Assembly (NCBI GenBank): GCA_013297995.1
Contig: JAAFJB010000007.1
Coordinates: 1-64,000 of the forward strand
From: Chitinophagales bacterium
Lineage (GTDB): Bacteria; Bacteroidota; Bacteroidia; Chitinophagales; Chitinophagaceae
Reading direction: 5' to 3'
Length of the DNA stretch: 64,000 nt
Positions 22,944 to 26,985 of this stretch are shown here, in pieces. Below the pieces are notes generated by a model, which saw only the letters and a list, made by a program, of their open reading frames with translations, made no database searches and was not told the origin of the DNA. Both the position numbers and the translations under genes were made by a program. Numbering within the stretch: position 1 is the first letter of the stretch; each line of letters opens with the position of its first letter.

Positions 22944-24017
22944 TTATTCCTTCTTACTTTCAAGCGTAAAACCAACCGTTGTGCCAATGTCTAATTTACT
23001 CCTCACATGAATGGTTTGCCTATGTGCTTCTATAATATGCTTACAAATTGCTAGTCCCAAGCCAGCACCACCAATATCTCTGCTTCTTCCTCTATCTGTT
23101 CTATAAAATCGTTCAAAAACCCTCGATAAATGTTCCTCGGCTATGCCAATTCCATCATCACTCAATTCTACTAATACATGCATTCCATCTGTTTTATAAA
23201 TGCTGGCTACAATATGCCCCTCTTTTTTTCCGTACTTAACCGCATTTTCTACTAGATTATTTATTACTTGTCTTACTTTTTCTTTGTCAGCAAATACCGT
23301 AATTGGGTATTCACATCCTTTCTTTATTGCACACTTGGTATATTTTGCAGCCATTTTAATGGAAAGGGTTTCAAAAATTTCTTTTATTAAATCTTGAATA
23401 ATAAAATTCTCTTTATACAGTGGCTGCTCCCCACTTTCTAGTTTAGATATTTCATCTAAGTCTTGTACCAAATGAACCATCCGATCTACATTTTTTGCAG
23501 CATTTTCTAGAAATCGTTTACTAATACTCGGATTGTCTATTGCCCCTCCCAATAAGGTGTCAACATAACCTCGAATAGCAAAAATGGGGGTCTTAAATTC
23601 ATGGGCTAAGTTTTGTAAAAACTCTTTTCTATACGCTTCATTCTGCTTTAATAGTTCAATTTCTGCGCTTCGTTGTTCTGCCCATTTTTCTACATCTGCC
23701 CTTACCTCATCAATACTTTTTTGTGGCAAAATATACTTATAATAGGTTTCTTCTCTTTTGGTTGCTTTGGTTTGGTAAATAAATTTATATATCAATTTTA
23801 TTTTTCTATAAATAAAAGATTCCAATACAAATCTTATGAGGAAATAACTACCTAAAAAAATAATAACAAAGGCTACCAATGCAATCATCCACTGAGGACG
23901 TAATAAATAAATACCCAACGATAAAGGAATAGAGAGAATACAAGCCGTAAAAGCTGAGAGCTGGTGCGGAGATAAATTTTTTGTTTTAAACATAGCTTGT
24001 TGCAAGTTAAGCATCAA
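22944..24017 (-). CDS. Sensor histidine kinase
   Basis: Two TM helices, H-box LAHEFKTPIFAIRGYVDTL, N/G boxes NNLVENAVKYG, ELSDDGIGIAEEHLSRVFERFYR, GGAGLGLAICKHI. Confidence 0.93.
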   Translation of the reverse strand: MMLNLQQAMFKTKNLSPHQLSAFTACILSIPLSLGIYLLRPQWMIALVAFVIIFLGSYFLIRFVLESFIYRKIKLIYKFIYQTKATKREETYYKYILPQKSIDEVRADVEKWAEQRSAEIELLKQNEAYRKEFLQNLAHEFKTPIFAIRGYVDTLLGGAIDNPSISKRFLENAAKNVDRMVHLVQDLDEISKLESGEQPLYKENFIIQDLIKEIFETLSIKMAAKYTKCAIKKGCEYPITVFADKEKVRQVINNLVENAVKYGKKEGHIVASIYKTDGMHVLVELSDDGIGIAEEHLSRVFERFYRTDRGRSRDIGGAGLGLAICKHIIEAHRQTIHVRSKLDIGTTVGFTLESKKE

Positions 24018-24720
24018 ACTTATATCCTACACCTTTAACCGTAGTTATACAATCTACGCCTAATTTTTGCCTCACTTTTCTTATATGTACATCAATGGTT
24101 CTGTCGCCCACAATCACATCATTACCCCAAACCTGTGAAAGAATTTCATTGCGAAGAAATACCCTGCCAGGTCTTGACGCTAATAAATACACCAATTCAA
24201 ACTCTTTTTTAGCTAAAATCATTTCCTCTCCCTTAATATTTACCAAAAATTTTACTGGATCAATAGTAATTTCCCCAATACGAATTAATTTGTCTGTGTC
24301 TTTGGGATTGATTCTTCTAAATAATGCATTAACGCGACTAATAAGTACTTTGGTGCTGATGGGCTTATTTACATAATCATCCGCACCCATCTCAAGCCCT
24401 TTTATTTGAGAAGCTTCATCACTCATGGCCGTAAGAAAAATAATGAATGTATCTTGAAATAATGGCTGAGAACGTAAGATTTCGCAGACTTCTACACCAG
24501 TTTTTCGGGGCATCATTATGTCAAGAATAATCAAATCAGGTGTTATATTTTTTGCTTTTTCCAATGCCTCAATCCCATCTTTGGCAGTATGCACTTCATA
24601 GCCTTCTTTTTCTAAATTATAGCCTACAATCTCTAGAATATCAGGTTCATCGTCTGCAATCAGTATCTTCTTAGCCTTGCCTTCCATGTTAACATTAAGT
24701 TTACACAAAGTTAATTTCAT
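24007..24720 (-). CDS. OmpR/PhoB-type response regulator
   Basis: ILIADDEPDILEIVGYNLEKEGY, LIILDIMMPRKTG, winged helix DRTIDVHIRKVRQKLG.TVKGVGYKF; overlaps the kinase start by 11 bp. Confidence 0.94.
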   Translation of the reverse strand: MKLTLCKLNVNMEGKAKKILIADDEPDILEIVGYNLEKEGYEVHTAKDGIEALEKAKNITPDLIILDIMMPRKTGVEVCEILRSQPLFQDTFIIFLTAMSDEASQIKGLEMGADDYVNKPISTKVLISRVNALFRRINPKDTDKLIRIGEITIDPVKFLVNIKGEEMILAKKEFELVYLLASRPGRVFLRNEILSQVWGNDVIVGDRTIDVHIRKVRQKLGVDCITTVKGVGYKFDA

Positions 24721-24819: not shown

Positions 24820-26985
24820 ATGTGTAGCAGGCTGTTTTTGATACTAGTATTTTCTATTTTGCTGTATTCCCCAATTATGGCAAAGCAACTGGATAGCATT
24901 CCTCCCATCCCCCCAATGCGTCAATTGCACCATGAATATATTCTTAGGTCGCTTGAAGAAGTTGCAAAATTGAATCAGTTTTCACCTGAACTTGACTCCA
25001 TAACAATACAATCAGCTGCAAAAAATATAAACCGACTCCGATCAATTATTGAATTAAACAATCAGCTTGACAATAACGGCAAATACACTTGGCTCAGAGG
25101 GGTAAATGATTTGCTCACCGCATTTATTACCGCATTTAAATCTCGCTTTATTACCAGCAGTCACTACTTGATGCTAATTAATTCCTATGACACGGCCATG
25201 CGTTTAACCTGGCAGGAAGATTCTATGGAGTGGCTGGTAAAATCGGGTAGCTTTGAATTGGGGACTATTTTGGTAAATAATTTTGCACTGCAGCAGAATA
25301 GGGGTTTGGAACTTGCAAAAGATGCATTGCTGGTAAAACAGTGTGAGCGGAATCCCGATAATATATTATCCATTCTCTCAAAAAATCCTACAACAGCTTC
25401 CGCCGATTCACTCATTGTAAAAGTTGCATTTAAAGATCCAGAAGCATTGTATAATTATGCAGCAGCACCCGATAAATTGGGTAAGAAAATTCAATCGGTA
25501 AATCATCCATTTGTAAAGCTATTATCGCAACTAGCACTTACCAGTACCGCTCGCATGTATTTTCCTTTTTTAGATCAATTGTACAAAGGCAAGCTAACCA
25601 TGGATTCTATTACCCGTTACGTAGGCAATGATACCGCTATTGGATATTATAAGTTATTGGTTAAGACCAGAATTGAATATGCAGCTAGAATGAAACAGTG
25701 CGATACCCCTATGGCAGTAAAGGTATTGACGAACAAGTTAAAGTCAAAAGGAACAGAGCTTTTCATTAATGAAATCAATGCTTTGCACACTGAAAAAAGT
25801 GATGTAATTCGGTTTAAAAAAATAGAACTTCTTTCGCCTTCTGAATTGTATTATCTGGCTGTTTTGGGAGAAGAAGAACTGTATACTTCTAGTTTTGTGT
25901 CTGGTATTTATCCCCGTATTTTTAGTAAGATGCGTATACCAAGATCCGACACATTATTGCACTTGGTTTCAGAAGATTATTATAAAAAATTTATTAAAAT
26001 AACTGCTGCATATAATAAGCTAGACGACTTCCTATCTAGAATGAATAGCCGAGATGCAGAAGTATTAATGAAACGTTTTGTAAGTAATCTAGACGATACC
26101 AAAACCTTGGAAGATGCGGTAGATATTGCCGACTCCTACGCCAGTATTTATAACGTATCTATCCGACAGTTAATGCTTAATAAAGTAGGCTTAGAACTGC
26201 AACGTTGTGAACTAGAGAAACAAAAAAGGGGACAAGTTATTTATGGTCTTCTGAAAACCATTTTTACCTCACTCGATTCTACCAATAAAAAAACAATGTC
26301 GGCCACATTGAATATACCCCCAGTTTTTGAACTACCATATAAAAGCATGCGAGATAGTATTACAGGGACTATAGCCATGCAATTATTTTTTTATGGTGAT
26401 AAAGATGGGAATGTGGTATTCAACGCTTTCTTGAACAAATTCAATCAGCCATTTTGGAAAATTACCCGTAAATCGCAATGGGTAGAAGTAACCTCACTTA
26501 AAGGAATGCCTATAACTATTTTTGCCAACCTGCCATTGGATGAAATATTTGAGCTGGATGAAAAATCGCAAGACAGCTTGAGTGCTTATTTAACTGATAA
26601 TCATATTCATCCTTCAATAGTGGTACATCGAGGTCACAGTTATTACCTAAATCGTACTATAGAGAAAATGCCATCATCAGCCAAATTGGTACTGCTCGGC
26701 AGTTGTGGTGGATACCAAAAATTGCATGATGTTTTGGCCATTGCTCCTGGTGCCCATATTATTTCTTCCAAACAAATTGGCACAGGTATTATTAATCAAG
26801 GATTAATCAATATGATTAGTGAGCAACTTCGGTTGGGCAAAGATTTACACTGGCCGGATATTTGGACTCAACTAACTGCCCGCTTTAAGGGCGCTGCCAA
26901 AGAAAAATTCGACGATTATATACCTCCCCACAAAAATCTTGGTGCCATTTTAATTACGGCTTATCAAGCACAGATGCTGGAATAA
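24820..26985 (+). CDS. Secreted hypothetical protein with putative C-terminal clan-CD-like (caspase/CHAT-like) domain
   Basis: N-terminal signal peptide; near C-term SIVVHRGHSYYL (H603) and KLVLLGSCGGYQ (C629), each after a hydrophobic strand. Confidence 0.65.
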   Translation: MCSRLFLILVFSILLYSPIMAKQLDSIPPIPPMRQLHHEYILRSLEEVAKLNQFSPELDSITIQSAAKNINRLRSIIELNNQLDNNGKYTWLRGVNDLLTAFITAFKSRFITSSHYLMLINSYDTAMRLTWQEDSMEWLVKSGSFELGTILVNNFALQQNRGLELAKDALLVKQCERNPDNILSILSKNPTTASADSLIVKVAFKDPEALYNYAAAPDKLGKKIQSVNHPFVKLLSQLALTSTARMYFPFLDQLYKGKLTMDSITRYVGNDTAIGYYKLLVKTRIEYAARMKQCDTPMAVKVLTNKLKSKGTELFINEINALHTEKSDVIRFKKIELLSPSELYYLAVLGEEELYTSSFVSGIYPRIFSKMRIPRSDTLLHLVSEDYYKKFIKITAAYNKLDDFLSRMNSRDAEVLMKRFVSNLDDTKTLEDAVDIADSYASIYNVSIRQLMLNKVGLELQRCELEKQKRGQVIYGLLKTIFTSLDSTNKKTMSATLNIPPVFELPYKSMRDSITGTIAMQLFFYGDKDGNVVFNAFLNKFNQPFWKITRKSQWVEVTSLKGMPITIFANLPLDEIFELDEKSQDSLSAYLTDNHIHPSIVVHRGHSYYLNRTIEKMPSSAKLVLLGSCGGYQKLHDVLAIAPGAHIISSKQIGTGIINQGLINMISEQLRLGKDLHWPDIWTQLTARFKGAAKEKFDDYIPPHKNLGAILITAYQAQMLE

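Follow-up and report, generated by a model that had tools for sequence, protein, structure and literature searches.

The 721-residue protein and its family

The window analysed here comprises the first 64,000 nucleotides of contig JAAFJB010000007.1 from a Chitinophagales bacterium. It carries a gene for a protein of 721 amino acids (P0001), which is present in a single copy in this genome and lies divergently from genes for a PhoB-like response regulator and a PhoR-like sensor histidine kinase, with three direct repeats between the regulator gene and the 721-residue gene and a gene for a large exported protein further along (Table 1). An earlier note on this DNA had proposed a secreted caspase- or CHAT-like protein with a catalytic His/Cys pair. 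The reading frame and length that it gave are borne out by translation, as are the codons of H603 (26626, within IVVHRGHSYY) and C629 (26704, within KLVLLGSCGGY).

Table 1. Positions in the window of the 721-residue gene, its parts and its neighbours
Feature	Positions	Strand	Basis or remark
PhoR-like sensor histidine kinase	22944..24017	-	two TM helices, almost no periplasmic loop
PhoB-like response regulator (receiver and winged helix), divergent neighbour	24007..24720	-	best NCBIfam model PhoB, under its cut-off
Three direct repeats, 11-bp period (GTTAACATTAA GTTTACACAAA GTTAATT)	24688..24716	.	between regulator gene and 721-aa gene
CDS of the 721-aa family member (P0001)	24820..26985	+	ORF and translation; homologues in genomes of the order
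Predicted signal peptide, about residues 1-22	24820..24885	+	hydropathy; such a segment in 189/197 members
α-Helical N-terminal module, residues 32-497	24913..26310	+	AlphaFold, all-helical; duplicated in long paralogues
C-terminal α/β domain, residues 498-721, putative catalytic	26311..26982	+	AlphaFold domain model
D527-K-D529-G530 motif, directly after the first strand	26398..26409	+	alignment and AlphaFold
H603-R604-G605-H606-S607 motif, end of strand 600-604	26626..26640	+	alignment and AlphaFold
G627-S628-C629-G630-G631 motif, after strand 623-626	26698..26712	+	alignment and AlphaFold
Exported protein of 1131 aa	27655..31050		C-terminal region β-rich by eye

The N-terminus (MCSRLFLILVFSILLYSPIMAKQ) is signal-like by hydropathy, in agreement with the signal peptide noticed earlier, and residues 20-23 are the sole stretch of the AlphaFold model with a pLDDT below 50. 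By a hydropathy heuristic, not SignalP, a hydrophobic stretch lies within the first ~70 residues of 189 of the 197 family members of at least 600 amino acids; among the remainder, four have another TM-like segment and two a lipobox-like motif.

A tblastn-type search covered 249 genomes of the order, and 104 of them contain relatives of the protein. The protein family is widespread. It is present in 59 of the 60 genomes sampled from the window's bacterial family, missing only from one of 2.3 Mb that belongs to the same genus, and it occurs in several other bacterial families too, yet it is nameless and without an assigned function in the libraries searched. No significant match was obtained to Pfam, NCBIfam, PADLOC or PDB sequences, and weak matches to designed helical proteins, EF-hand proteins and PADLOC models were set aside as chance-level. 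A scan of named genomes yielded 80 loci, almost all of them under the titles Sediminibacterium, Chitinophagaceae, Sphingobacteriia or Bacteroidetes. Sampling across the class also placed the C-terminal domain in two families (f119, f124) of another order. No significant relative beyond the same order was detected in a phylum-wide sample, where the weak matches of a domain search were discarded for in-frame stops or short frames, and none was detected in the viral contigs searched. The loci of f119 and f124 (L231-L239) have a single short copy, which in several adjoins an apparent RNA methyltransferase gene (SpoU/TrmH-like by eye), often with a MutS-like gene beyond it. A role in a defence system was set aside, as the family is vertically kept and has no defence neighbours.

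Two classes of paralogue are distinguished, a short one of ~700 amino acids and a long one of 931-1196, whose extra part is a duplicated helical module (hhalign E 5.9e-40). Families of the order other than the window's have the two in tandem, often start-to-stop (L031 6548-11944, L032 4367-9534, L033 2474-7271, and ~26 other loci). A divergent gene for a small lipoprotein of ~165 amino acids adjoins the long paralogue in L031 (12012-12509), L047, L067, L068 and L070.

Predicted fold and conserved residues

The full-length AlphaFold model, built on 75 relatives, has a pLDDT of 90 and shows residues 32-497 as all-helical, which supports the long helical N-terminal region of the earlier note. Modelled alone, the C-terminal domain reaches a pLDDT of 92.1 and a pTM of 0.91. 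It begins with strand 518-524, helix 530-539, hairpin 546-559, strand 565-570 and helix 579-593, continues with strand 600-604 (HRGHS), helix 607-616, strand 623-626 (GSCGG) and helix 631-641, and ends with strand 646-650 and helices 656-671 and 678-688. Both models (pLDDT 90 and 92) give the same succession, β1-α1-β2-α2-β3(His)-α3-β4(Cys)-α-β5-α-α. The caspase core consists of β1 α1 β2 α2 β3(His) α3 β4(Cys), its sheet being ordered 2-1-3-4 (PMC4357240); in separase and gingipain an extra helix lies between β4 and β5 (PMC4626109). In the order of its elements only, the clan-CD core (β1-α1-β2-α2-β3-α3-β4; PMC4357240) recurs in both models, and the predicted positions of H603/H606 at the end of strand 600-604 and of C629 after strand 623-626 correspond to those of the clan-CD His at the end of β3 and Cys at the end of β4. 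This succession of helices and strands is also compatible with a Ras-like domain.

Structural comparison, the other point on which the earlier note had let its proposal depend, gave no positive match to a recognisable caspase fold. The best 50 Foldseek matches of the domain model in the PDB are mostly small GTPases (best E 4.8e-4, TM 0.24-0.49), with no caspase, CHAT, gingipain, separase or other clan-CD enzyme among them, and viral models gave a similar picture of GTPase-like folds at low TM. On these matches the clan-CD fold is not established. The GTPase-like matches (E ~5e-4 to 2e-2) share a similar β-α order with the domain, but at such TM values they were not taken as homology, and the 721-residue protein differs from Ras-like GTPases in being exported and in having neither P-loop nor NKxD. 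With the full-length model, the best protease match in the PDB was TPR-CHAT (8d9f_A), at rank 4 and weak (E 0.097). A HAD phosphatase, considered on account of the DxDG motif, was dropped, since the protein has no other HAD motif and no Foldseek HAD match.

Profile comparisons gave nothing specific in favour of the CHAT or caspase membership considered earlier. An hmmscan of 20 family members returned no match to CHAT (PF12770), and neither the members nor hhalign matched C14 (PF00656) or C25 (PF01364). Against the CHAT, C14 and C25 relatives hhalign found no match, with CHAT at chance level, in a comparison of low power: in the positive control, known families hardly detected each other (CHAT-C14 22%, C14-C25 3.6%). 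Separase (C50) likewise gave no Pfam match; the likeness to it, a helical N-terminal region before a C-terminal His/Cys α/β domain, is one of architecture only. Of the earlier proposal, then, the exported protein, its helical half and an α/β domain with invariant His and Cys are supported, and a recognisable caspase fold is not.

The His/Cys signature is more than chance, because H603 (82/82) and C629 (81/81) are the only invariant residues among 14 His and five Cys in a family alignment of 82 sequences. The earlier note had made its proposal hinge on conservation of these two residues in orthologues, and on that point it survived. Invariant in the alignment are N320, Y344, D527 (82/82), H603, R604, G605, S607, G627, C629, G630, W678, Y700, P703 and N706, and H606 (codon 26635) is nearly so (79/82). 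The HRGHS motif is intact in all 167 short members whose C-terminus is complete, and in 28 of 32 long members. Three long members of one lineage (L035, L065, L226) have HRGLS together with DGSC and may be inactive; one further long member has HRGYS. C629 is kept in all four long paralogues with a changed H606. Loss of H606, seen in some long copies only, is compatible with inactivity of those copies or with H603 as the base.

NYTGHG and ITASC occur in the C25 relatives from these genomes, and YFSGHG and IIDAC in the C14 relatives; the corresponding motifs of the 721-residue family are VVHRGHS and LLGSC, in which G605-H606-S607 aligns with the G-H-G of C25 and C14. IVVHRGHS and KLVLLGSC resemble the strand-G-H-G and strand-x-x-C motifs of these two peptidase families in the same clade. 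Weak mean-field coevolution pairs (V601-V624, ranked ~59th, L623-I648 and A519-S599) suggest neighbouring parallel strands with H606 level with C629. Because of this motif alignment and the weak V601-V624 pair, H606 is preferred over H603, with moderate confidence, as the likelier catalytic base; the earlier choice of H603 as the catalytic His was probably a mis-assignment. C629 is the putative nucleophile. The spacing of 23 residues between H606 and C629 is short for clan CD and compares with 33 in C25 relatives. The clan-CD motif is defined by a catalytic His followed by Gly (PMC12445089), and in HRGHS neither His directly precedes a Gly, the nearest approach being G-H606-S. With the His-Gly motif altered and no structural match, the 721-residue protein is not filed in clan CD. 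These two results weaken membership of the clan more than they weaken a clan-CD-like way of working.

Linkage to a PhoB/PhoR-like pair

A conserved neighbour of the family, and a finding new to this analysis, is the PhoB/PhoR-like pair. The best NCBIfam model of the regulator is PhoB, at 230 bits, under the cut-off of 296, and its true start (MEGKAKK...) is probably downstream of the annotated one; the TM helices of the kinase were read by eye from the sequence. Among 103 loci whose protein is at least 38% identical to that of the window, 96 have the regulator and kinase no further than 2.5 kb away; of 60 loci under 38%, 21 still do, with more than one orientation represented. The metallo-β-lactamase and large 1131-residue neighbours are lost in loci below 38% identity, and in some loci the pair is still a neighbour where the protein is ~32% identical. 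One strong copy of the kinase is found in most genomes of the order, including genomes without the 721-residue family. The pair is named PhoB/PhoR-like because in three genomes without the family (L242, L243, L248) the kinase lies beside an apparent pst operon and phoU, as read from the sequence.

The 11-bp triple repeat (GTTAACA-like) is unique in the window, scoring 42.5 against 13.0 for the next best. It is conserved in most Chitinophagaceae loci with the regulator beside the gene, and not where the regulator is absent. For that reason the repeat, which has a Pho-box-like layout, is more likely, indeed probably, the regulator's own operator, and it is a candidate Pho-box for the Chitinophagaceae group. 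Control of the 721-residue gene by the repeat is disfavoured, since the repeat tracks the adjacent regulator.

The gene for the 1131-residue protein, which has no Pfam or NCBIfam match, is a co-conserved neighbour in close relatives. In a genome of the same genus without the 721-residue family (L240), prfA, galE, HK, RR and MBL are kept in order, and pit, phoU, the 721-residue gene and the large 1131-residue gene are missing at that place.

A putative envelope cysteine hydrolase and its alternatives

The explanation that fits best, held with somewhat better than even confidence, is an exported clan-CD-like cysteine hydrolase that is regulated through its helical half. Such a His/Cys hydrolase, periplasmic or at the surface, would most likely be an endopeptidase, of a family without an entry in the libraries searched; the protein probably represents a new type of cysteine protease of the cell envelope, with a fold unmatched to caspases. 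The analysis itself shows the export-like N-terminus, the invariant motifs, the predicted fold and the gene linkage; catalysis, a peptide substrate, the choice of His, control by the helical half and the tie to the phosphate response are inferred. The nucleophile would be C629, where one parallel strand ends, and the base a His of HRGHS, preferably H606 and possibly H603, where the neighbouring strand ends. The DxDG loop after the first strand would help to form the P1 pocket or bind a metal. The helical half of ~470 residues would serve as a module for docking and regulation, like those of separase and TPR-CHAT (Csx29). These two proteins resemble the 721-residue protein in having a long helical N-terminus before a C-terminal α/β His/Cys domain. 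With separase the likeness extends to the order of helices and strands, including an additional helix that follows the strand with the Cys (PMC4626109). Unlike both, the family is exported, was found here in Bacteroidia only, has a single α/β domain, carries HRGHS instead of a strand-H-G motif and shows no detected sequence similarity to them; nor does Pfam recognise TPR in its helical part. Should the family be a protease, a widespread, housekeeping-looking enzyme of the envelope would have an architecture that is known best from separase and TPR-CHAT in the cytoplasm or nucleus.

The possibility that the protein does not catalyse at all is unlikely. It would then be a binding protein, a Rossmann-like domain of Ras topology on a helical scaffold, in which the HRGHS, GSCGG and DxDG loops hold a ligand or metal. 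This is consistent with the placing of the domain nearest to G-domain folds by Foldseek, with a weak resemblance of the DxDG loop to EF-hand loops (E 0.88), and with the four long paralogues that keep C629 and not H606. However, neither a GKS P-loop nor NKxD is present in the domain, and a protein that is exported would not encounter GTP. Furthermore, the domain's invariant residues cluster at one edge of the sheet, and a nucleophile is the more typical role for an invariant Cys that sits in a strand-end GSCGG turn next to an invariant His.

A His/Cys enzyme other than a protease, for example an envelope transpeptidase, acyltransferase or thiol hydrolase, appears distinctly improbable. Legumain ligase and GPI8-type transamidases make use of this dyad geometry too, and the presence of the family in 59 of 60 sampled genomes is housekeeping-like; however, no lipid, sugar or cell-wall enzyme is a neighbour kept across the family in the loci examined.

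For the preferred cysteine hydrolase, the divergent position beside the PhoB/PhoR-like pair in Chitinophagaceae suggests that it may be co-regulated with the pair or act on its pathway. Its persistence beside a kinase almost without a sensor domain would tie proteolysis in the envelope to phosphate signalling in a concrete, testable way. A more specific version is tentative and on the whole doubtful: a new exported, separase-like protease family of Bacteroidota in which a helical sensor gates a clan-CD-like His/Cys site in the envelope, tied to the PhoB/PhoR-like pathway and accompanied in tandem by a longer partner with a doubled sensor module.

True membership of a known clan-CD family (caspase C14, CHAT, gingipain C25 or clostripain C11) is already disfavoured and very improbable: the general style of the motifs and the secondary-structure order speak for it, but none of 20 members has a Pfam, NCBIfam or PDB profile match, hhalign links them to neither C14, C25 nor CHAT, and HRGHS replaces the strand-H-G motif. 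C14 caspases, metacaspases and orthocaspases share the core order, with His and Cys at neighbouring strand ends (PMC4357240), but differ in lacking a profile match or a place among the best 50 Foldseek matches. The C25 peptidases of the gingipain/PorU type are likewise exported His/Cys enzymes of Bacteroidota with comparable motifs (NYTGHG/ITASC against VVHRGHS/LLGSC), but they have another domain architecture, no profile match to the family and a His-Cys spacing of 33 residues, where the family has 23 or 26. Besides the 721-residue gene, the window's genome encodes a C25 protein at another place and has a separate C14 gene.
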